Position numbers and translations under genes: made by a program. Below are positions 1,131 to 28,994 of a DNA stretch of 33,784 nucleotides, piece after piece. Under the pieces are notes generated by a model. The model had not been told where the DNA came from. It was given only the letters and a program-made list of their open reading frames with translations, and searched no databases. The DNA is from Monosiga brevicollis MX1 (taxonomy: Eukaryota > Opisthokonta > Choanoflagellata > Craspedida > Salpingoecidae), in NCBI RefSeq assembly GCF_000002865.3, contig NW_001865043.1, positions 23,064 through 56,847 on the forward strand, read 5' to 3'. Within the stretch, counting starts at the first letter, position 1. Every line of letters starts with the position of its first letter.

Positions 1131-1229
1131 TGACGCTAACACACGCTATTTCGGTGGATGGACCGTTTTGCTCCAGATGTTAAGCAAAGCCCGCTCTGCT
1201 CGTTTGACTTCCTTTTCCGTTTGCATAGC

Positions 1230-1479
1230 TTTTAGGATATGATCTGTTTGTGGTCAATTCACAAAGCAAACAGAGGAAATTGAAACGGGAATGGTACAAA
1301 GTAAAATGCCACTTCCGGTCTACAGAACCGTACTTATATCTCGGTGGCAGGAACAATCACAATGTTCTACAGGCTTCCTTGAGGAGCGCCGTCAAGAATC
1401 ATCAGACATCATCCTGGACTGGTATCTTCCAGAGTGTTCCAGCAGCTTCTGGACTTACGTCTATGCTTGTAGTCCAATA
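1230..1479 (+). mobile_element. 250-bp mobile element, copy A, with target-site duplication
   Basis: This 250-bp block begins TTTTAGGATATGATCTG and ends GCTTGTAGTCCAATA. It recurs in inverse orientation at 6915-7164 with exactly the same length and six substitutions by eye. Copy A is flanked by the direct repeat ATAGC at 1225-1229 and 1480-1484, and copy B by a different 5-bp repeat, as expected for independent insertions with a 5-bp target-site duplication. The ends (TTTTAGGA and, on the other strand, TATTGGAC) are at best weak inverted repeats. A solo long terminal repeat or a short non-autonomous DNA element would both fit. It encodes no protein I recognise. Confidence 0.85.
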
Positions 1480-1484
1480 ATAGC

Positions 1485-1996
1485 AATCGACAAGACAACC
1501 ACAAGCGTCACGCATTTTCAATTTGTACGTGCAGCTTGAGCGGCGGCCGTTAGAGCGGTCACGCGGTCACAAAGGGTTTGTAGATCTTGGATATTGAACA
1601 ATTGAGGATCCACACGCCAGCCGACGTTACAGAGAACAGCAGCAGCGCACCGCCAGCGTCTGACCTGCTCAGCATGAATCAAGCCTTGAACTGGCGCCAC
1701 GTTGAAATTCGATGAGAACAAGACGATATAGACAATCACATTGCCTACAGGTTCGCACCATTTGAATCCGAAGTTTGATAGGAGCAAGGAGTACGGGTTG
1801 CGCGCAATAGCTCTTCAATCAGCTATGAAGCGGAGCAGATTCGTCGGTGAGCAAGCCTGACTCTGCAATCAGTACCAAAAAATAAAAAGCCCACCTCCAG
1901 CTTGATGGGACTCCTGCTAAGGAGCAGATCCAAGGACCGTGCACCCGTCTACCACAGCAGGCCATCAAATATCAATTGCCGGTGCAACAGAACAGC
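1485..1996 (-). other. 3' flank of ankyrin gene 1; possible extra terminal exon
   Basis: Minus-strand reading frames here (about 1518-1800, ending AAAQAARTN-stop) could be a further terminal exon of the ankyrin gene ending at 1997. A TTGCAG acceptor near 1869 would instead give a short terminal exon ending LLRFIAD-stop. No ankyrin consensus is visible in either, and the sequence cannot decide between them. The simplest model stops at 1997. Confidence 0.3.
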
Positions 1997-4492
1997 TCAA
2001 AAATACGGCATCGTGCTGACATGATCTCTCGTATCCGGGTCGGCACCGTGCCGCAGGAGTTGCTGGATACCCTTTCGGCTGGCAGGCAAGGCAGTGCAGG
2101 CTACATGGAGCGGCGTTTGGCCGTTCTATATTATCATCAACGTTTGGGAACATGAGAAATGAGTTCTTCGCGCACGGAAGATATAGCAGGAAACAAGATG
2201 AAATGCAGAGAGCACCGACGAAGAGTGGACAAAAACGGGAAAGAAAGAGGGATAGCGGGAAAGAAGATAGGAGCAAGAGGCCAAACGGACGCGCACAAGG
2301 GATAGAATGTAGAGGGGGGAGAGACGGCGCAAACAAGCCGAGCAGCGGGAGCAGAAGCAACGGCAGCCAGAGGAGAGGGAGGAGGGGATACTGTACTTGT
2401 ACTGACGTCTTTCTTGGCGTTGGGATCAACACCGTGCTCTAACAGCATCTCCATTATGTTGGCATGACCCTGAAAGCACGCCCAATTCAATGGTGTCCAG
2501 CCACGCTGTGGGATGATGCATCGGCATGACGTACGGGTACTGCATCATCAGCATCATCATGTACAGGATAGGGGGGTTAAAAAGGGAGTAGAAGGTGCTG
2601 AACTAACGCTGTCCATGGATTTAGGATCAACACCCTGCTTCATCAGCAGCTCCACCACCTCGGCACGACAGTGAATGCACGCCCAGTGTAGTGGTGTCCA
2701 GCCACGCTGTGGGATGTTGCATTGGCATGACGTACAGGTAGACGGTATCATTGGTACAGGTTGGGTCAGCAAAAGGAGAGGCGAAGTTCCGTACTGACCT
2801 TGTCTTTGGCTTGAGTATCCAGCACCCTGCTTCATCAGCAGCTCCACCACCTTGGCACGACAGTGAATGCACGCCCAGTGTAGTAGTGTACAGCCATCCT
2901 GTGGGATGTTGCATTGGCATGACGTACAAGTACCGACGGTATCATTGGTACAGGTTGGGTCAGCAAAAGGAGAGGCGAAGTTCTGAACTGACCTTGTCCT
3001 TGGCTTGAGTATCAGCACCCTGCTTCATCAGCAGCTCCACCACCTCAGTATGGCCCTGAATGCACGCCCAGTGTAGTGGTGTCCAGCCACGCTGTGGGAT
3101 GTTGCATTGGCATGACGTACAAGTACCGACGGTATCATTGGTACAGGTTGGGTCAGCAAAAGGAGAGGCGAAGTTCTGTACTGACCTTGTCTTTGGCTTG
3201 AGTATCAGCACCCTGCTTCATCAGCAGCTCCACCACCTTGGCACGACAGTGAATGCACGCCCAGTGTAGTAGTGTACAGCCATCCTGTGGGATGTTGCAT
3301 TGGCATGACGTACAAGTACCGACGGTATCATTGGTACAGGTTGGGTCAGCAAAAGGAGAGGCGAAGTTCTGTACTGACCTTGTCTTTGGCTTGAGTATCA
3401 GCACCCTGCTTCATCAGCAGCTCCACCACCTCGGCACGACAGTGAATGCACGCCCAGTGCAGTGGTGTCCAGCCACGCTGTGGGATGATGCGTCGGCAAG
3501 ACGTACAGGTATTGCATCATCAGCATCGCCATGTACAGGATAGGGGGGTCAAAGAGGGAGTAGAAGGTGCTGAACTGACCTTGTCCTTGGCTTTAGTATC
3601 AGCACCGTGCTTCATCAGCAGCTCCACCACCTCAGTATGGCCCTGAATGCACGCCCGGTGCAGTGGTGTATAGCCATACTGTGGGATGTTGCATTGGCAT
3701 GACGTACAAGTACCGACGGTATCATTGGTACAGGATGGGTCAGCAAAGCGAGAGTGGAAGTTCCGTACTGACCTTGTCTTTGGCTTCAGTATCCACACCG
3801 TGCTTCAACAGCATCTCCGCCACCTCGATATGACCCTCAATACACGCCCAGTGCAGTGGTGTATCGCCATCCTGTCGGATGATGCATCGTCATGTCGTAC
3901 AGGTAAGCATCATCATCAGCATCATCATGTGGTACATGCACCATCATAGGGGGGTGATATTCTGCACTGACGTTGGCCTTGACGTTTGTATCAGAACCGT
4001 ACTTCATCAGCATCTCCACCACCTCGACATGACCTTTGTTGCAGGCGTAGTGCAGTGGTGTATGGCCATCCTGTGATATGATGCATCGGCAAGACGTATA
4101 GGTTTCAGCATCATGTACAGCATAGGGAGGTAAAAGAGAGAGTGGGAGGTACTGTACTGACTGACCCTGTCCTTGGTTTCAGTATCAACACTGTGTTTCA
4201 ACAGCATCTCCACCACCTCGACATGACCTCTGTTGCAGGCATAGTGTAGTGGTGTATGGCCATGCTGCGGGGATGACGTCCAGGTAAGCATCATCATCGT
4301 GTACACAGCATTCAGTGACACATTCAAAGTGTAGCTACACAACATCATACCAAGCAGCATACGTACCACATCAACTTTGCATTTGGCAGCATCTGGAATA
4401 CGTTGATGGTTCCAACTGTTCAACAGCTGCAGCGCCTCTTGTGGATCTGATGAATTGCACGCCTTGTACAGCTGCTCTCCAACATCACTCAT
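1997..4492 (-). CDS. Ankyrin-repeat protein 1, one exon per repeat
   Basis: Ankyrin repeats usually mediate protein binding; the partner is unknown. Minus-strand exons: 4367-4492, 4166-4264, 3972-4070, 3773-3871, 3580-3678, 3379-3477, 3186-3284, 2993-3091, 2799-2898, 2608-2706, 2407-2505, 1997-2125. Exon 1 encodes a 42-residue leader ([20 protein letters not shown]...) shared with two paralogues. Exons 2-11 each encode one 33-residue repeat of the type GWTPLHWAC...[18 protein letters not shown]. All but exon 9 are exactly 99 nt and phase 0, with gtcag- or gttag-type donors. Exon 9 is 100 nt: one extra C near 2820 relative to near-identical exon 7 shifts the frame. Skipping exon 9 restores frame and gives about 381 residues. 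The final exon ends [20 protein letters not shown]-stop by read-through of a possible donor, so the 3' end is uncertain. No signal peptide or membrane segment is seen. Confidence 0.82.
2126..2406 (-). other. Long pyrimidine-rich intron of ankyrin gene 1
   Basis: This last intron is about 280 nt, three times the other introns of the gene. It is very purine-rich on the plus strand, so pyrimidine-rich in the transcript, with runs such as GGGAAAGAAAGAGGGATAGC. Similar sequence recurs in introns of the second ankyrin gene around 7420-7600 and 7680-7925, so the intron was duplicated along with the genes. Confidence 0.6.
2608..3678 (-). repeat. Near-identical ~193-bp exon+intron modules
   Basis: Exon low ends fall at 2608, 2799, 2993, 3186, 3379 and 3580, a period of 191-201 bp. 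Both the 99-nt ankyrin exon and its ~94-nt intron are conserved. The introns repeat CATGACGTACA(A/G)GTA, GGTATCATTGGTACAGG and TTGGGTCAGCAAAAGGAGAGG almost unchanged. Conservation of intron bases as well as codons shows recent tandem duplication or gene conversion, not selection on protein alone. Confidence 0.9.
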
Positions 4493-4497
4493 GATGA

Positions 4498-4498
<1 letters not shown>

Positions 4499-4551
<53 letters not shown>
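4499..4551. repeat. (CT)n microsatellite abutting the ankyrin gene 1 start
   Basis: About 26 CT dinucleotides with one interruption, read as (GA)n on the coding strand. The run ends six bases before the ATG at 4492, so it probably lies in the 5' leader. The paralogue at 8456 lacks it. Confidence 0.9.
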
Positions 4552-4554
<3 letters not shown>

Positions 4555-4559
4555 ACATT

Positions 4560-5000
4560 CGCTTTTTGCTTCTACATGTACTTTATCCATCACCAATCTC
4601 ATGAGCCTCCAACTCGTCTGACTATCCCAATGTCGTTAAAACCGGCGACCGGTCAGCGCGCCTTGCTCCACCCTACCTTTATGCGCCAAACAACTCACCT
4701 CTGACCAACTGCTCTTGGTAACAGTTGCGAAGACAGGTGTAGTTGGTTGCCGAAGCGCACGCTGTTGACAGTGAGGCGAGGTCAGTAACCTTACTAAAAA
4801 GGGCGGGGAGGCAGCGAAGCTTTTAACCAAAAACGCTCTAGCGTCGCAACAAAGTCTCCAACCAAGAGAGTCCCGTACCAAACAAAAGCGATCAAGCACC
4901 ACACACAAAGCAAGACACGTCAGACAGCCCTCTGATGCCGATATCCGTACGAATGCCGAAGAGGTGATAAAGAAGGGGCAAAGCAGAAGAGGAGGCTGAA
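4560..5000 (-). promoter_or_regulatory. Duplicated 5' flank of ankyrin gene 1
   Basis: This upstream stretch is homologous to 8480-8960, upstream of ankyrin gene 2. Shared blocks include GAGAGTCCCGTACCAA (near 4866 and 8797), GCGATCA before a CACCA or CACCAT motif, GTTGCGA(A/G)GRCAGGTGTA, and GATGCCGA downstream. Gene and promoter were therefore copied together. No TATA box or other named element is recognised. Confidence 0.6.
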
Positions 5001-5903
5001 AAATGCAACTCATGCTATAAAATGTTCAACCTGTATTTTTGTTTCTTGTTGTTGAGATGTCTAAAAATAGTCAAAACTGACGAAAAAACTTCAAAACACA
5101 TTTATGTGTAATACCTCTACGGCAGCCGGTTAGCAGTCCCTTATAATCCGTCCGTCATGGCAGCCAGAAGATGTTCCAAGCTCGTTGGCTACCCGGTTTC
5201 ACATCTCCAGCCATGTCAAACTCATCTCCCGGCCCGCATGTGCATTTTTGACGGCGAGCGGGCCGACAAAATATTTCTTTGCAGCGCATATCCAAAGGGA
5301 AAATGTAGTGAATATTCATGAGCTCTTCATGTTGCTACAATCGATCGCAACTGTAAGAAAGTCTTTGACCTTTTTGGCAGTTGGCAAGCCCGAGCGGCGA
5401 GGCACAGATCATTGTCAATCAATACTGTGAGGTGCGGCCCTATGAGCGCAAAACAACTGGTCGCAGCGCGGGGGAGTCTCACATGCCTTGTCCGCTCCCC
5501 TCATTGGCCTCGTGCTCGCTCTTGTACGACCTTATCCTCTTCGCTGAACGCGTCCTCGAATATCGGTGTTCAGCGGCACGGCACGAGCAGCCAAGACAGT
5601 CTGGACCGCCATTTCCGCCATGAGGACGTCGAGCCGCAAGCCAGCGCGAGCACAAAAAGACAAAAAGAAGCACAGGACGCACGATCACCGTGAGCATGTC
5701 TCGCGTTCGCTCCGCAGCCTTTCCTGGAATGTGCAACTGGCTGGCAAGCGCGACAGACCGATTACGTGGCTTCTTTGCCGCTCAAAACAGCAGCCGCCCT
5801 AACTCCGAGATCTAAAGGCTTTCGATCCGGGCTGTCTTGGCCAACGCTGCAATGATCGTTCGAGCTGCGCCTTGACGCCAGTGGCTTGGAAAGCGTAGCA
5901 CAG
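5001..5903. other. No gene recognised
   Basis: Several overlapping reading frames of 76-93 codons exist on both strands. None shows a family motif, a consistent exon structure or a preferred strand, so I call none of them. Confidence 0.4.
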
Positions 5904-6191
5904 TTAGAGGGCTGATCCTTGCCCGCGAGCTTTTCTACGGCGCTCTTCAGCCCAAGCTTGTGTCTTACGCGCAGCTGACGAAACAGTCTGATGCCCGACT
6001 TGCGGCACCACGACTGGCGCGGACACCGCTACCTCCACCACGTCAACACACAGCTCGTCGATGATGTTGTCAATGCCATCGTCAGCACCAAGTTGCGTGC
6101 CCACAGTCTCCTGCACCTGTGTGCTGTGGCTTAAATATGACTGTTGTTTGAATCGAAGATGAGCCGTCGTTTTCTCAAGGCCAAGATCCAT
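5904..6191 (-). CDS. Hypothetical 95-residue ORF
   Basis: An uninterrupted frame begins MDLGLEKTTAHLRFKQQSYL and ends ARGQGSAL-stop. The middle is acidic (DDGIDNIIDELCVDVVEV) and the tail is basic (AARKTQAWAEERRRKARGQG). I do not recognise the family. It could be a small single-exon gene, one exon of a larger gene, or chance. It lies next to a decayed copy of the 250-bp element, which leans toward relic sequence. Confidence 0.25.
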   Translation of the reverse strand: MDLGLEKTTAHLRFKQQSYLSHSTQVQETVGTQLGADDGIDNIIDELCVDVVEVAVSAPVVVPQVGHQTVSSAARKTQAWAEERRRKARGQGSAL

Positions 6192-6298
6192 TGTTTGACT
6201 CGATTAAGGCGAACAAATTCAGAATAAATTCAAAACAAAGTCAGATCAAACAGACTGTGGCCGTCAACAGAATGATCAACAAGCACTGCATCGTTCGG

Positions 6299-6483
6299 TA
6301 TTGGACTCCAAGCATAGACGTATGTCCAGGAGCTGCTGGAACATACTGGGAGATACCAGTCCTGCTATCGTGCTCAACCACTGCAGGATGATGTTTGATT
6401 TTCCTTGACGGCGCTCGTCAAGGAAGCCTGTGGAACATTGTGATTGTTCCTGCCACCAAGATTCAAGTACGGTCCGGTGGCAT
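6299..6483 (-). mobile_element. Degenerate copy C of the 250-bp element
   Basis: On the minus strand this copy shares the GGTGGCAGGAACAATCACAA core, the TTCCACAGGCTTCCTTGA stretch and the CTCCTGGACATACGTCTATG end with copies A and B. It lacks the first ~75 bases, has a small deletion near its truncated end, and carries an extra ~20 bases around 6375. Substitutions are much more frequent than between A and B, so it is older. No target-site duplication is visible. Confidence 0.75.
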
Positions 6484-6647
6484 GACAAATTCGCGGTTGA
6501 CAAAATGATCCCTCAACGAGCAGCCCCCGGAATGATCACTGGCAAATTCCTCTCGAGGGCGGTCGATGCTTGTAGTCAAATTAACACACTCCGCTTGTAG
6601 CCGAAACCCAGAACTTTATCAAAGAGCTAGCAATACCTTGCAGCAGT

Positions 6648-6815
6648 TCAACAAGAGCTGCAACCTCCGCTCGTGGTGAGTTGGCATGTGCCCAATGATC
6701 GAACAGAGGCAGGTATCATTGATGTGTCGAGTTGAGAGTTTGAACAAAAGTTCAGGTAACCGCCCACGCTGGTGATACTACCAAGGCCGTTCACGTTGGT
6801 CAGGGCGTCGTTGTC
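6648..6815 (-). pseudogene. Receptor-L / LRR-like exon fragment
   Basis: After a GTTGCAG acceptor the minus strand reads DNDALTNVNGLGSITSVGGY, then LNFCSNSQLDTS, ending GGCSSC-stop. The LTNVNGLGSITSVGGYL pattern matches the repeat of receptor L-domain / bacterial-type LRR proteins. No convincing partner exon is found nearby, and copies B and C of the 250-bp element lie on either side in the same orientation. I read it as a gene fragment, but an unrecognised small gene is possible. Confidence 0.45.
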
Positions 6816-6845
6816 CTGCAACAGCCGGAGAACCAACACATCACA

Positions 6846-6914
6846 TCAGATGCTCACAAACACACCCCATGGCACCGATCCGCTGGCCTTCTCATCCACA
6901 CAAGCCACACCGTG
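6846..6914 (-). pseudogene. Severed 3' end of ankyrin gene 2's last exon
   Basis: Directly after copy B and its duplicated CACGG, the minus strand resumes an ankyrin frame: HGVACVDEKASGSVPWGVFVSI-stop. Joined conceptually at CACGG to the upstream part (ending QLLRHG), it completes a normal repeat. This is what an exon split by the insertion should look like. The tail now lies downstream of the element's own stop codon. Confidence 0.7.
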
Positions 6915-7164
6915 TATTGGACTACAAGCATAGACGTATGTCCAGAAGCTGCTGGAACACTCTGGAAGATACCAGTCCAGGATGATGTCTGATGATCCTT
7001 GACAGCGCTCGTCAAGGAAGCCTGTAGAACATTGTGATTGTTCCTGCCACCGAGATATAAGTACGGTTCTGTAGACCGGAAGTGGCATTTTACTTTGTAC
7101 CTTTCCCGTTTCAATTTCCTCTGTTTGCCTTGTGAATTGACCACAAACAGATCATATCCTAAAA
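6915..7164 (-). mobile_element. 250-bp mobile element, copy B, inside an ankyrin exon
   Basis: Identical in length to copy A (1230-1479), with six differences, in the opposite orientation. It is flanked by the direct repeat CCGTG on the plus strand (6910-6914 and 7165-7169), a 5-bp target-site duplication. It sits inside the last exon of ankyrin gene 2 and contributes codons FRI and a TGA (7152-7154) to it. Confidence 0.88.
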
Positions 7165-8456
7165 CCGTGACGCAAGAGTTGGTCGACAACCGTTCGGCTG
7201 GTAGAGAAGGCAGTGCAGGCTGCATGGAGCGGCGTTTGACCGTCCTATATAGTAACCAATGTTTGGAAACATGGGGCGTGTTTGCATTTTTTTTTTTAAA
7301 GAGGGGGCGTGGGTGGGTGATAGTGAGCGTCAAAAAGCTGAAGAAACAACACGGAAAGCCGCTCGAACGTGCGAGGGAGGCAGGGGCGCTATGGCAAGGG
7401 AAGGTAGTGCGCCGATTGAGGTCACAACATCAGAAAAGGAAAGCGGGTGGAAGATACAGCGGAACAAGCAGAAAAGGAACAAGCGCAAGAACGGAGTGCA
7501 CACAGTGGGCAGGGTGTAGAGGAGAGAAGAATGGAGCAAAGGCGACGTGCACGGGAACAGCAGCAGCAGCCAGAGGGGGGGTGGAGTGGATGAGAAAGGT
7601 ACTGACGTTGTTCTTGGCTTTAGCTTCAGCATCGTTCTTCAACAGCATCTTCACCACCTTGACCCTTAAGTCACAACATCAAGCAAAGGGGGAGCGGGCG
7701 GAAAATACAGCAGTACAAAGCAGGGGGGCATGGTGCACCGACAACGTGCGAGCGCAAACCGGATGAAGAAGAGGGATAGCGGGAAAGAAGAAAAGGAGCA
7801 AGAGACAGAACAGACGGGCACGGGTGCGCAGGGGGTGTAGAGGAGAGAGAGAGATGGGGCAAAGGCAACGAGCAGCGAGGAGCAGGAGCAGCAGCCAGAA
7901 GGGGCGAAGAGGGAGGCACTGTACTGACGTTGTCTGTGGCTGCAGTATCAACACCGTGCTTCAACAGCAGCTCCACCACCTTGACATCACCCCTAATGCA
8001 GGCCTCGTGCAGCGGTGTTTGGTCATCCTGTGGGATGATGCATCAGCATGACGTTCAGGTCCAGCGTCTTCATCAGCATCAACATGTGGTACAGATGCAC
8101 GATCAGGGAGGTACTGTACTAACGTCGTTCTTGGCCTTAGTATCAGCACCGTGCTTCAACAGCATCTCCACCACCTTGACATGACCGTTACCGCAGGCCC
8201 TGTGTAGTGGTGTCCAGCCATCCTGTGGGATGATGCATTTATGCAGTCAACGTCCCAAGTTATACCATAACGTCTCATTCAGATTAAAAGTGTAACCAAG
8301 TTTACACAACAGCATGTCAAACAGCATACGTACATAACATTTGTGTTGGGCAGCATCTCGAATTCGTTGGTGGTCCCAACTGGTCAACAGCTGCAGCGCC
8401 TCTTGTGGATCTGATGAACGACACGCAAAGTACAGCTGAAATCGATCATCACTCAT
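7152..8456 (-). CDS. Ankyrin-repeat protein 2, truncated by an insertion
   Basis: Exons on the minus strand: 8334-8456 (leader [20 protein letters not shown]..., 41 residues), 8124-8222, 7929-8027 and 7152-7244. Exons 2 and 3 are 99-nt phase-0 ankyrin exons ([20 protein letters not shown]... and [20 protein letters not shown]...). The last exon reads [10 protein letters not shown]...VVDQLLRHG and matches the final exon of ankyrin gene 1. After HG the 250-bp element begins and reads FRI-stop. The predicted product is about 137 residues with roughly three repeats. With its 5' flank the gene is a duplicate of the one at 1997-4492. It may still be transcribed; binding partner and role are unknown. 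Confidence 0.75.
7607..7664 (-). pseudogene. Half ankyrin exon left in an intron
   Basis: The minus strand reads [19 protein letters not shown] followed by a gtcagt donor: the second half of an ankyrin repeat without its TPLHxA half. The only AG before it (cttaag) would give 58 nt and break frame, while all intact exons are phase 0. The upstream sequence is intron-like and resembles 7420-7600. It is probably a deletion relic that is skipped. Confidence 0.6.
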
Positions 8457-9068
8457 GGTAACTGTATGTCTCCAGCACGATCCGCTTCAAACCCGCTTTC
8501 TTGCCTCTAGCCACCACCAAGCTCATGAGCCCCCTCCATCGGACTGGGATTCGACATGCGCGCGCCGTTTCCAAAACGGCAGCCGGTCAGCGGGCTCTGA
8601 GCTCTTCTCTGCCTGGTGCGTCAAGAGACTCACCTCAAGCCAATACTTTTGGGTGGCAGTTGCGAGGGCAGGTGTACTTGCTTGCCCAAGCACACGCTTT
8701 TGACTGTGAAGTGAGAAGCCTCACCACGGGAAAGAAAAGGGGGGCGGGGGCAGCTCTCAACCCACGTTCTGGCGTCGCCACAAGGCTTCGACCAGGAGAG
8801 TCCCGTACCAAGCACAAGCGATCAGTCACCATACAGAGCAAGAGATCAAGCGGCCGCCGATGCCGACGTCGAGACCGATGCCCAAGAGGGGAAAGACGAA
8901 AAAAGCTTAAAAGCAAAAAAAGGAAACACTTGCAAGCGAATGGCAGACAAAGGAAAAAATGCAAAAATCACATGTCAAACCTTTTTGTTTTTGTTTTCTG
9001 TGCGAGGACAAGATGAGACGGATGTTTCCCGTTTTAACGATGAATTCACGACAACCCATGGCGACTCT
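8457..9068 (-). promoter_or_regulatory. 5' flank of ankyrin gene 2 (duplicate of 4560-5000)
   Basis: The part at 8480-8960 aligns with the flank of ankyrin gene 1, including the GAGAGTCCCGTACCAA block near 8797. The plus-strand frame running through 8501-9016 has no family match and lies in this duplicated flank, so I treat it as non-coding. Confidence 0.55.
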
Positions 9069-19042: not shown

Positions 19043-22038
19043 ATGTCCCACAGGCCAAAGTCGTCTAGCGTGGCGCCCGACTCATCGAGCGATCGCAAAA
19101 CTAGCGTCTTTCCCATATTTTCACACGCTGACATTCAGCAAGAGCGTTTCAACGTACGCTTCCCTGCCGGTCTCGAGCCCTTGGAGCGCTGATCTCGTCA
19201 CGGTATCTTAGCCTCACGCCCTTGGTACCCCCTCCCCTTCAGGATCTTCAAGCCAAAGGCAAGGACAAAGGCACCTGGCCGTTTGTTGACAGCGAAGGCG
19301 ACAACATCCTCCCACCCACGCTCTTGCCGGTCCGGCCCGCCTGCTCCAGCCGGATCTCCCACCCTTGTGCTAAGATGCTCACTTGGCGCAACTCGTTCCC
19401 TACCCGCAGCGTGTTCATGAAAAAAAGCGAGTCGCTGAGCTGGTTGCAACCCCTGATACCAATGCTCATTTGTGCATTGTCGCCTCGCGGCGCTTTGAAC
19501 CGGTTGAGCGTGAGGTCAACTTGAGCTCGGACGAGCGCGTCTATCTGAAGAAGCGCAAGCTCAAAGTTGCGCCCAAGCTAGAGGTTTGGCCGCGCGCCCC
19601 CCTCCTCGCATTTACATCGCCCTCTTCCCCCTCTGTGGCAACTACCTCGACTCATTAGCACTGTCACCCACTACCAGGAGCCATGGGTTGACCTGGTCAA
19701 ATGCAATGCCCACCTCCTTGAGAGTGGCCTCATGACTCAGCTCTTACAGATATTTTCCGTTCTGCAGCGGCCTCCCTCCGATTCCAGTATGTTATCTGCG
19801 AAGCACGAGCACGAGCATGGCACAAGGTGCTGTAGTCGTGGCTTGCCCCCTCACTCAATGTTGGTGCTCAAATTGCCAGCTTGTCACCATGAGCGACCTT
19901 GGCAACTCATCTACCCTCATATCGGCGGGAACAAGTTCGAGGTCAACACTGGAAGCAAATATGTCGTTCGCCTCTACGTTATGGTTAGTCCCTTGAACAC
20001 ACCCTGTTCTCCAAAGACCATCGCTGCAGCAGCTAGGGCGTCCGCCCCCTAGTGCTTTGCAACCCTAACCCCATCGCAATGTCGACTGTGCACAGGGAGC
20101 GTGGCGCAAAATTGTCATTGACGACATGATCCCAATCACCGCAGAGGGCACTTGGCTGCTGCCGCAAAGCTCGCTGCCTGGTGAAATCTGGCCAGCCCTT
20201 GTATCCAAAGCAATCTGCAAGGTCTTGAGCTACAGTTACACAACCCCTTCAGAGCAGCAATCAGAGTTCGGAGATGCTGACATTTGGTCCCTTTTGACCG
20301 GCTGGATGCCAGCCGAGCGACGACCCACCGTGGGCAGCGGGTGTGTCAGCAATGCCCCGCACATTGACCTGTTTTTCTGCTCTCGCTTTTTGTACCTCAG
20401 CGGTTCAATGTTGACCTGCCTTTCAATGACTCTCACTTCTCACCACCTCTTTCACTCTGCTGGCCCCCTTGGCGCCAGGCAACCAAAGTTTTTGCAATGG
20501 CTGAATATGCAGCGCCCTGCTTTACTGACGATCCTAGCCGACGACGTGGTGCCAGACAGCCCGGAGGATGTATTTGAGGAACCGGTGGCCGAGCGCACCT
20601 CACCCGTTGGGCCTTTGCCTGCTCCCCCTGCCACTGAAGCCCGAGAACCGCGACGTGGGCGAAACTCATCGCTTGGAGCCCCCTCTTTGCGCGGCTCGCG
20701 GCTTCCATCAGCCAAGGGTGGCTCCCGTGTCTCCACCCCTGTTCGTGGCGAACGTGATGGGAGCGCATCAGCGCCTCAACGGACAGAGCCCCGTGGCACA
20801 TCGGCCCCGCCAGAGCCAGCGGTGGTACAGGGCTCAAAAGCGCCCACTTTGGCTCCGACCAATCGTCGACAAATCGTGGCCCATATCTTGCACCCGCAGC
20901 CTGCTGACAAGCGTGGCTCGTCCGTCGAAGGTGGGACTCCTCGCCATGCATGGCTTGAACAGAAGCGTTTCACAACGTAGCTTGACCAATTCACATAAAC
21001 GTGGCTCTTACGTGATGCTCTAGTTGACCTTTTGGGATGTGCCCCAATATCGGCACAACACGCCTGCGTGGACGAGGATGAATACATGGCACCAGAAAAC
21101 TGGATCGTTGTTTTCGCCTCACCCTCTTACACCTGGACCGGGGCACTGGCAGCTAGTGCAGATGCCGGTTGGAGCCCACGCGTGCAAGCTGCACTGGGCG
21201 TTACGCGTGAAAGGCTTTTGGCGGAGCAGGCAGCACGGGCCACTCCGCGGCCGGACGGGTTTTCGCACCCCCTCCTACCCCAGTTTATGTTTGCCTCGGA
21301 CTTTTTCAACCTTGCCACGTGCGTACCTCGCCTCCAGCCAAAGATGTGTCATCGAGGGTTGTGGACAAGCTTTTGTTTCTCGCTCTGTACTCGGCTTATG
21401 ACCATATGTCTCCGTGGGTGCTTTTGTGTCTGTCAGGCGTGTCCTAGTTTACGAAAAGCCGGCCATATGCACCAAAAGCGTGCTACTACAACAGTATAAG
21501 GGCCATGCTAGCGTGATTCGCTCGGTGGACAATGCAGACCCAGAGGCGCGCACCGACTTTGAGGTTGGTGTCCGCCTTGCGTTATTCATGATGCTGTTGA
21601 TCGGATTTCTTGGTCGTCAAAGGCAGAGTAACTAGCCATTGGTTGCGACTTGTAGGATATGGACGTGCGTGCAGACCGGCCCTTTTACTTTCACTGCGAC
21701 TCGCGAGAGGCCGTGACGCTCTTCATGGTGGTTGCTGGCTCAGCTGCGGCTCCAGCCATTCAACTTGCCGAGCGCCCGACGAGTGGCACTGAGAATGCAA
21801 GCACATCCTTGCAGCCGGACTATCGTGTGGCCCATCCCGTCGCCTTTTCTCTTTTGCCCTTTACACCCTACCGGAACACCGTCGATGTCCAGGTGTGCCT
21901 GTCACTCATGTTTCAAGTCGATTTGTTTTCTTTTCTCCTTTTGTGCCTTTGCCAGACTACTTCAGACCATCGTTCTACATTAGATACTCACGTGTATTTG
22001 GTTGACTGATGGTTTGTGTGTTTGGTGTTTGTTTTTTG

Positions 22039-26147: not shown

Positions 26148-28994
26148 TCAAGGCAGGACAGGGCCAACAAAATTTTCGTGTGCCTTCATGTACTCGCAAC
26201 AGAGCTGCTTGTCGTTTGTACCACGCTCTGGGTTGTATGCACTTAGATCCCCTACGTACGCCCCATGGATGAGATGAGAACCACATTCCGACGTCATCAA
26301 CGGGAATGGCGGTCTTACATTTGGCCGCACGAGCTAGCATTTGCTGGAAGATCTCTGGTTTGGACTGGGAAATGTCCGTGTGCTCTGTAGGGTCATTGCT
26401 GTCAAGACCACCGAACACGTGCGCACGATGCCACGTCCAGACGGCAAGTTAGCGGTGGGAATCTCGGGGCAGTGTGCAAGGGGTGGCTGGCTGACATCAC
26501 GTACATGATATCAAAGAGACAGCCCTCCTTACAGTCAAAGGATTGGCACGGAACCCCTGTGCTCGGCGTGCTCGTGTTGGGGAAGTGTTCCCCCTGCCAA
26601 AAGGCGTAATCTTTGTACCGACACAGCATCATGAATTTGGGATGAAGCGAAAATGATCAGCCGAGCATCTATTCGTTCCCACCTTGTGAACCTCGGATGA
26701 GCTTGTATTGCCCAACAATTAAAGCGCCGTTTGGTCCAGAGGCCAGAGGCATCTCCGTGCGTGGCGAAGTAGCGTTGGGCGTAACCAGGTACTCCCACTG
26801 GCCATAAGAACATAAGAAGCAGCAATAGTGAGGCTACCCAAAAAAAAACCATATGGCTGTTCAAAGCAGGCGGGTCGATCCCACCATGTCCATGCCGTCC
26901 ACGGCAGGGAAGCCTGGCACAACGTCATCGGGCGACACACCAGCTAGCCTGGCGAAAGTAGGATACCTACGCACGCCAACCGTGACGTTGTGGTGAGCTC
27001 GAAATTATTGGTGTCTTCGGCAAAGACTGAGAACAATGGTTTAGCGGTCCTACCAATCTGCGACATGAATGTAGCCATGCTTTTCGGTTCCAAGCGCAGC
27101 TTGCGGCAGTAGTCCGCCCTGAACAAAGCTGTTGACGCGCATGCCACCTTCCCAGGCTGTGCGTTTTCCTCCACGTAAAGGATAGTTGTTGGCCATGGAT
27201 CCAGACACCTTTTCGTCCACAACAAGTATGAGTACCTGCTTGATGTGCTTCACTCACGCCGTTGGGATATCGAAACGCACGCAACTGCCAGCTGGTCCGC
27301 CGTTATCTGAAGTCATAAGCTGAATGGAACACATGTCATGTGCAAACACGTTGGTAAGCATTTTGCAGACAAGCACGACTGCAGAAACAAAAAGACCGTG
27401 GATTGAGAGGCACAAGCTGTCACAGGCATACCAGCAGGAGGTTGTCCCACATGCCTTTGGCCTTGAGAGCAGCAGTCACGTTGCCATACACCTGTTAAGC
27501 CCGTAGCAGCTCCACTGGTGAGACTTGGCGGCAAGGTGAGGAAAGCGGTGCCGAGGTCATTCGCACTTGCGTGGAACATTACCTCGTCAGCGAATGTGGC
27601 CATCCCCTGTTCTACATTGAAGTTCTCGGTACCGTTGTACTGCGAGATACAAAGCTGCAGTGAGCGTGGCATGAAAAAAGAAAAAGGCTGAAGACACAAT
27701 CGGCGTGTCTGATGCAACACTGGCGGCTCATCCGGGCTTTTGCTACAAACCAAAGTGGAGTACGCTGAGGGTACTTCTTGAGGCGCATGCATGGTCTGGA
27801 GGGCGATATACATGAAAAGCGGCTGTGCCGGGTCGTGAGCCTCGATTATGCGCTCGGCATGGCGCCAAAAATGCTCGTCGCCATAGATGCCTGCAAGACC
27901 GTTGGTAGGAAGCCATGTGTGTTGAATTTGGGAACGCAGAAAAGGTGCCAGCTCGCGACTTAAGCACAAACCGTCATTGGCCACAGAGTACGCCGGTGCC
28001 GTCGAGTTCCACATGTCAAAGGCTGTGCCGCAATCACAGCCGCCGTTGGTGTGATTCCAATGATCCTCGGCACCCCCCAAGTAGCTACCCGCGTACATGT
28101 GAGACCTCAGCTACACAGAACTCAGAACGATGGGTTGGGATGATCATTTTCAAAAGGACAAGAACTGACCCAAAAGAAGAATCAAACCCGTGGCCCACCG
28201 GTGTATTTCCAACGTGTGTTTGACCGAGATGCCACTTGCCAACCTAAGCAAACGCTCGATGAAGGGCTGCTGAACGAGCGCAAGGCAAGTCCACAAGCGT
28301 GATGCAGCAAATGGGTTCAATACGCAATGGCTCACTTGGTGCGTAGCATAGCCAGCCGTCTTGAGCTTTTTGGGCAGCATTGTCATGTTAACGCTGGGGA
28401 AAATCAGCCAGATGTCACCCAGTTTTCCGGCTCTTCAGATGGGCACACGCGTGATGCATTGGACCGACGAGACACCTACGGCACTGCGCCCATTGGCGTG
28501 TCGGCAAAGTCGTTGTTCTCCGAAACGTGAAGCGGATAACGACCTGCAGCCCGGCGAGCAAGTAAAGTTGGTCAATCACCCACTGGCAGACCCCCAAGTT
28601 AAAATACCGGCGAAAGAGATACCTGTCATCAGCGAGCTACGCGTTGGACTGCAGTACCTGATTGAGGCCGGTTTGCAAAGACACGAGTGAGCTTTCAGCG
28701 CCTGCTGCGTCGAATCCAACCAGCTTTCTGGGCGGTCTACCGTCAGATCCCGCAGCCTTACCAGAATCCGTAATGGCGCTCAAGTTTGACGCCAGTGGCG
28801 GCCGCCTGATCGAAATTGGGCGTGTGCACGTTGGGATTGTGGTAGCCAATGTTGGACCAGCCCATGTCATCCACCACAAATAAAATCAGATGCGGCAGCG
28901 TGGCGGCCTGCACCAGACCCAAGCCTAGCACAGCTGACACGACCCACACCCCGAGCCAAGACGCTGCCATTCTTCCAATGAAAGTCAAAGCCAC
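26148..28994 (-). CDS. Secreted arylsulfatase (ARSB/I/J-like)
   Basis: Sulfate-ester hydrolase of the formylglycine sulfatase family, 538 residues, 15 minus-strand exons: 28762-28994, 28623-28657, 28480-28543, 28336-28393, 28170-28243, 27751-28105, 27583-27639, 27432-27491, 27281-27319, 27054-27208, 26885-26966, 26683-26797, 26505-26610, 26319-26398, 26148-26251; all phases close. A hydrophobic signal segment (about residues 9-31) precedes LILFVVDDMGWSNIGYHNPN (metal-binding D42, D43). The catalytic signature is YCSPTRSSLMTGRYP (C80 is the formylglycine precursor). Then come VGKWHLG (K133, H135), SHMYAGSYLGGAEDHWNHT, H261 in QTMHAP, TSDNGGP (D317, N318) and NNYPLRGGK (K340). WEGGMRVNSFV, DMWEYLVTPNATSPRTE, LFDIINDPTEHTD and ENFVGPVLP-stop follow, all typical of this branch. 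Every active-site residue I know is present, so it should be active if a formylglycine-generating enzyme exists. Likely lysosomal or extracellular; substrate not readable. Confidence 0.94.

Follow-up and report, generated by a model that had tools for sequence, protein, structure and literature searches.

The window analysed here, 33,784 nucleotides of the choanoflagellate Monosiga brevicollis (C52:23064-56847 in a genome of 39.47 Mb and 57 contigs), carries two well-preserved copies of a short repeat, and the question raised by this locus is what kind of element they represent and whether they arrived by transposition or within larger duplicated segments. Copy A (1230-1479) and copy B (6915-7164) are inverted with respect to each other, are each exactly 250 bp long, and differ, when one is reverse-complemented, by six substitutions in an ungapped alignment. 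Beyond either end the similarity is lost, no flank is common to the two copies, and each is bordered by an exact 5-bp direct repeat of its own: ATAGC for A (1225-1229 and 1480-1484) and CCGTG on the plus strand for B (6910-6914 and 7165-7169). These features had been read from the window alone in an original prediction, and pairwise and genome comparison bears them out. That prediction offered two identities, a solo LTR or a short non-autonomous DNA transposon. We conclude, with a probability of about 0.96, that a Ty1/copia LTR retrotransposon left A and B behind as solo LTRs. The element probably belongs to the half-tRNA-primed (Hemivirus-like) type and has termini other than TG...CA; it is a known kind of element, of which this is a new member. 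Word searches of the literature recognised no publication on it, although such searches could have missed one.

The long copy and the ends of the repeat

A long copy of the element occurs on contig C17 (C17:193802-198095, 4294 bp, minus strand), in which a 5' LTR of 274 bp and a 3' LTR of 250 bp, in direct orientation, enclose a 1072-codon minus-strand open frame. The ends of copy A coincide with the LTR boundaries of this element. Its 5' LTR terminates (minus strand) in ATCCTCAAA and is followed directly by GGTTATGGGCCTCG, the primer-binding site (PBS), while the polypurine tract TTGAGGGGGAG lies directly before the 3' LTR, which begins TATTGGAC. A form carrying the repeat as a direct pair around a copia-type pol frame, with the PBS and polypurine tract placed exactly at the repeat ends, settles that the 250-bp unit is an LTR and not a short DNA transposon, and the solo-LTR guess was thereby sustained. 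The true LTR reads TATTGG...CTAAAA, which places A on the minus and B on the plus strand; the inverted arrangement originally described thus stands, with the two strands exchanged. The termini, TA...AA, do lack the usual TG...CA, as had been remarked.

When the C17 frame was searched as four pieces, Pfam models for the copia protease region, integrase, an SH3-like domain and reverse transcriptase matched in copia order: Pol_BBD (E 4e-13), gag_pre-integrase (2.7e-5), rve (4.4e-6), SH3_retrovirus (4.3e-12) and RVT_2 (5e-35 and 6.3e-19), the gag_pre-integrase and rve matches both lying under the curated cut-offs and the remaining ones over them. Integrase therefore precedes reverse transcriptase in this pol. 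In contig coordinates the RVT_2 match (C17:194724-195371, minus strand, E 2.2e-58) is far above the Pfam cut-off and the rve match (C17:196272-196595, minus strand) below it. No gag domain was recognised by Pfam models in any of the four pieces, no RNase H model matched the last of them, and a search of the genome with Retrotran_gag_2 returned no match, this model being equally silent in all control genomes, so that its silence here does not imply absence. The full-length relative anticipated in the original prediction, with two repeat copies around gag-pol, is accordingly represented by the C17 element as regards pol, its gag portion being unrecognised. Elsewhere in the genome, an RVT_2 match at C48:760159-760854 falls in an open frame given as 4756 codons, unusually long for a copia pol.

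The two LTRs of the long copy are identical at 241 of 250 ungapped columns (nine differences) and are further separated by a 24-bp gap; BLAST identities score this gap as mismatch, so that the pair is properly described as 96.4% (ungapped columns) and not 88% identical. These differences, together with outer flanks that agree at only 3/5 bases (GCGCT/AGGCT), show the C17 copy to be aged or recombinant, and A and B may derive from another copy.

Priming is the feature by which the element can be placed more narrowly. Nucleotides 26-39 of the host tRNA-Met, encoded by two identical genes in the genome, read CGAGGCCCATAACC, of which the PBS is the exact complement over 14/14 nt. The identical 14-nt site follows an LTR on C3 and precedes the matches to copia reverse transcriptase at C15 and C55. 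An 11-mer from the PBS is not rare by itself, since the genome has 19 hits to it and 15 to its reversed control, and its weight therefore comes from location: four of the 19 hits are at the C17, C3, C15 and C55 elements, and two are in tRNA genes. Use of a short or internal tRNA segment as primer marks the Hemivirus type (PMC1181622, in excerpt; PMC8515867), and the excerpt of PMC1181622 lists copia, 1731, Ty5 and Osser in this genus of Pseudoviridae and has synthesis start at nucleotide 40, to be compared with a PBS that here faces nucleotides 26-39. The likeness consists of the copia domain order and a PBS that pairs with an internal stretch of tRNA-Met, so that priming would fall to a tRNA half whose end lies in the anticodon stem-loop. 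The difference lies in LTR ends of TA...AA as against TG...CA and in the unrecognised gag of the long copy. Placement within Hemivirus, for which the PBS is the evidence, is hence putative, and use of a cleaved tRNA half as primer in vivo is a prediction from sequence.

The unusual termini were not taken to exclude a copia element because exceptions to TG...CA are known, among them the plant elements TARE1 (TA...CA) and AcCOPIA1 (TG...TA), as described in an excerpt of PMC5659011. To these may be compared the TA...AA of the present family and the TATTG...CAATA of a sister copia LTR family, represented on C15 by an LTR of 265 bp with the same tRNA-Met PBS. A TATAA within GATATAAGTACGG, at LTR positions 142-146 (7056-7060 in copy B, plus strand), is a candidate U3 TATA box with a presumptive promoter function; the word TATAAGTACGGT recurs in the C15 LTR of the sister family. 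On the mechanism proposed here, RNA transcribed from the LTR would be copied into cDNA with a cleaved half of tRNA-Met as primer, in the manner of copia and Ty5; integrase would insert the cDNA by way of a 5-bp staggered cut; and recombination between both LTRs would then remove the interior, so that a single LTR stays behind, flanked by the 5-bp duplication.

Copies, target sites and rival explanations

A search of the 39.47-Mb genome with the 250-bp repeat, as had been proposed, returned 43 matches, a lower bound on the size of the family; a divergent copy used as query gave at least 42, three of them at new places (C43, C13 and C51:1415594). The young form is 250 bp long and comprises A, B, C17:193802, C52:1470083 and C16:30441, any two of which differ by 4-13 mismatches. 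Among the older copies, many have a length of 272-275 bp and retain about 24 bp that are absent from the young form, although the old copies at one shared site (site 3) are also without most of this segment.

Within the window, a third and degenerate copy (C) had been placed at 6299-6483. It is a real but truncated LTR, confined to 6299-6473 (plus strand), which retains the LTR start (U3 side) and has lost the other end; it is identical to A at 138 of 153 ungapped columns, with 22 further gap columns. A 20-bp inverted remnant of the LTR start beside it (6562-6581, minus strand) is a weak match (E 0.023). Two opposite LTR pieces about 100 bp apart, C46:9549-9760 and C46:9858-9931, resemble copy C and this inverted scrap. 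The surrounding window also holds tandem segment arrays on the minus strand (2390-4490 and 7590-8460) that appear by eye to consist of ankyrin-repeat-like coding units, the first of which matches sequence in many of the family's genome loci. Farther along are an open frame with a calpain (Peptidase_C2) match (20069-20977, plus strand, E 5.7e-6) and another with a weak sulfatase match below the cut-off (27316-28110, minus strand, E 0.004).

Target-site duplications were compared at ten distinct two-ended sites, hand-picked with one representative for each. An exact 5-bp duplication was found at five and a 4/5 match at one, while four showed agreement at only 0-2 of five positions; among mispaired flanks used as control, none of 90 combinations was exact. 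The expectation that genome copies would show 5-bp duplications was thus confirmed at half of the sites, with four of the ten lacking a duplication. For copy A the state before insertion can be examined directly, since nine paralogous segments align across its junction without the element. Eight of these have a single GCATAGC or GCACAGC, and hence a single ATAGC or ACAGC at A's target position. The clearest case is the opposite end of contig C52, alignable over 545 columns (91%) and empty at A's site. The reciprocal arrangement is seen at GTCTA, single in the window (1947-1951), where the paralog C52:1470083-1470332 has a 250-bp LTR flanked by GTCTA on both sides. On C41, C28 and C55, moreover, an LTR with the duplication CGTTG sits a little upstream of A's site in the paralogous segment, and A's own site is without the element. 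Reciprocal empty sites and target duplications together show that the repeat transposed. For B, no empty allele spanning the junction was found among paralogs, with which similarity begins no more than about 6 bp to the left of the insertion; its transposition is argued from its LTR boundaries and its exact duplication. The reading originally favoured, a transposition and not a segmental duplication, is confirmed for A by the empty sites and supported for B on these other grounds.

Each of three other explanations accounts for some of the same observations. A short, MITE-like DNA transposon, moved in trans by a transposase whose cuts leave 5-bp duplications, would explain the equal length, sharp ends and duplications of A and B. 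However, the repeat has no terminal inverted repeat, its first 20 bases agreeing with the reverse complement of its last 20 at 8/20 positions, a value reached by 1162 of 10000 shuffles; an end-to-end inverted repeat is likewise lacking, and the same sequence is found as the LTR of a long copia copy, with PBS and polypurine tract at its ends. This alternative, which the original prediction had kept in reserve, is very improbable and can be set aside. Similarly improbable, and slightly more so, is the proposal that segmental duplication of subtelomeric DNA, instead of transposition, distributed the repeat. Segments of this kind do recur on many contigs, and flanks are held in common by the group of C51:243010, C51:248803 and C55, by the copies at site 2 (C41, C28 and C55) and by those at site 3 (C47, C1, C53, C40 and C19). 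Similarity running past the repeat ends, which had been named as the observation that would point to segmental duplication, is therefore real for some genome copies, but A and B have no common flank, and the reciprocal empty sites with single target copies still uphold the transposition of A. We read the common flanks as the result of later duplication of segments that already contained an insertion. Duplication multiplied insertions; it did not create them. A probable instance is C51:241000-250900, built of a 5793-bp unit in which every unit has an old LTR copy with the same flanks. The direct pair at C51:243010 and C51:248803, at a spacing of 5.8 kb, was considered as a possible LTR pair and rejected, as the flanks repeat too and the frames recur at 5793-bp spacing; this pair is read as a tandem duplication.

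The least credible of the three, to which we attach almost no weight, is a SINE, or non-LTR short retroelement. The repeat is short and dispersed, and several copies lack the 5' end as first defined, all of which a SINE would share, yet it makes 5-bp duplications, has no tail and occurs as a direct pair around pol, and the window contains neither an Rfam nor a tRNA match. Two other candidates were rejected: a structured RNA, the predicted fold of B being unremarkable (z -1.0; other strand as DNA, z -1.76) and no Rfam match being present in the window, and a Pol III gene, no tRNA being found in the window. With these set aside, the solo-LTR reading is retained for A and B.

Possible recurrent insertion at A's site and the bias toward contig ends

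Older LTRs lie at or beside A's target (site 1) at seven other loci: C51:1402383, C52:1467540, C43, C13, C20, C31:583568 and C31:32846. In a tree of 29 LTR copies, including six of these seven, A's LTR does not come out as their sister: a single clade uniting A with the six older LTRs was rejected (p-AU 2.9e-5), and a clade of the six without A gave a p-AU of 0.06. The right flank of A pairs with the empty locus C52:1470342 (support 100/100; 94% alike), whereas its left flank agrees with that locus at 58/78 positions, no better than with other paralogs. The presence of a young LTR at a site with older copies fits either a second hit on the same nucleotide or gene conversion of an older LTR, and the mosaic of A's flanks suits gene conversion as well.

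Insertions of the family are concentrated near the ends of contigs. After grouping by hand on shared flanks, 13 of 19 insertion sites are no more than 40 kb from a contig end, a zone that makes up at most 11.6% of the genome (binomial p 9e-9). Two loci with shared flanks were merged into other sites (C31:32846 into site 1, C51:1415594 into site 3; 15/21 before merging), and the count omits a few very short secondary hits, at C41:896170, C41:903219 and C44:18869. A similar pattern is seen in the sister family, which has 27 matches, 14-15 of them of about 250 bp or more (93-100% identity); among these longer matches, ungrouped by flank, 11 are within 16 kb of a contig end and two are internal, two further long matches being on contigs for which no distance to the end is available. 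Neither TTAGGG nor TTTAGGG was present at two readable contig ends, which speaks against naming contig ends telomeres, and two other ends checked consist of N only.

This bias may result from assembly breaks at repeats, or from better survival of insertions in duplicated ends, and targeting of the kind displayed by Ty5 is a possibility. Yeast Ty5, likewise a copia-type, half-tRNA-primed element (PMC1181622, in excerpt), integrates at telomeres and silent loci according to an excerpt of PMC5911963, whereas the preference here is for contig ends whose telomeric nature is doubtful. The stronger proposal, that a half-tRNA-primed copia lineage, its termini being TA...(A/T)A, targets for integration a repeated segment close to chromosome ends and is able to strike one nucleotide repeatedly, and thus that Ty5-like targeting exists outside yeasts, seems to us rather unlikely, though worth stating. 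Closer to the present host, an excerpt of PMC6875170 describes the copia-like families Srospv1-6 of Salpingoeca rosetta as mostly of low copy number, with solo LTRs in some families and 5-bp duplications; the present family is likened to them by description and not by sequence. They differ in size, their LTRs spanning 168-554 bp and their full elements 4.9-11.2 kb.

From the perspective of genome biology, much of what is documented here is ordinary: a long element, solo LTRs and reciprocal empty sites make up a textbook case contained in one genome, and the solo-LTR reading accounts for this family of repeats in the window. Less ordinary is the bias toward contig ends. If it reflects targeting and not survival, this family and its sister would together make it possible to test how copia integrases locate chromosome ends in organisms other than yeasts.
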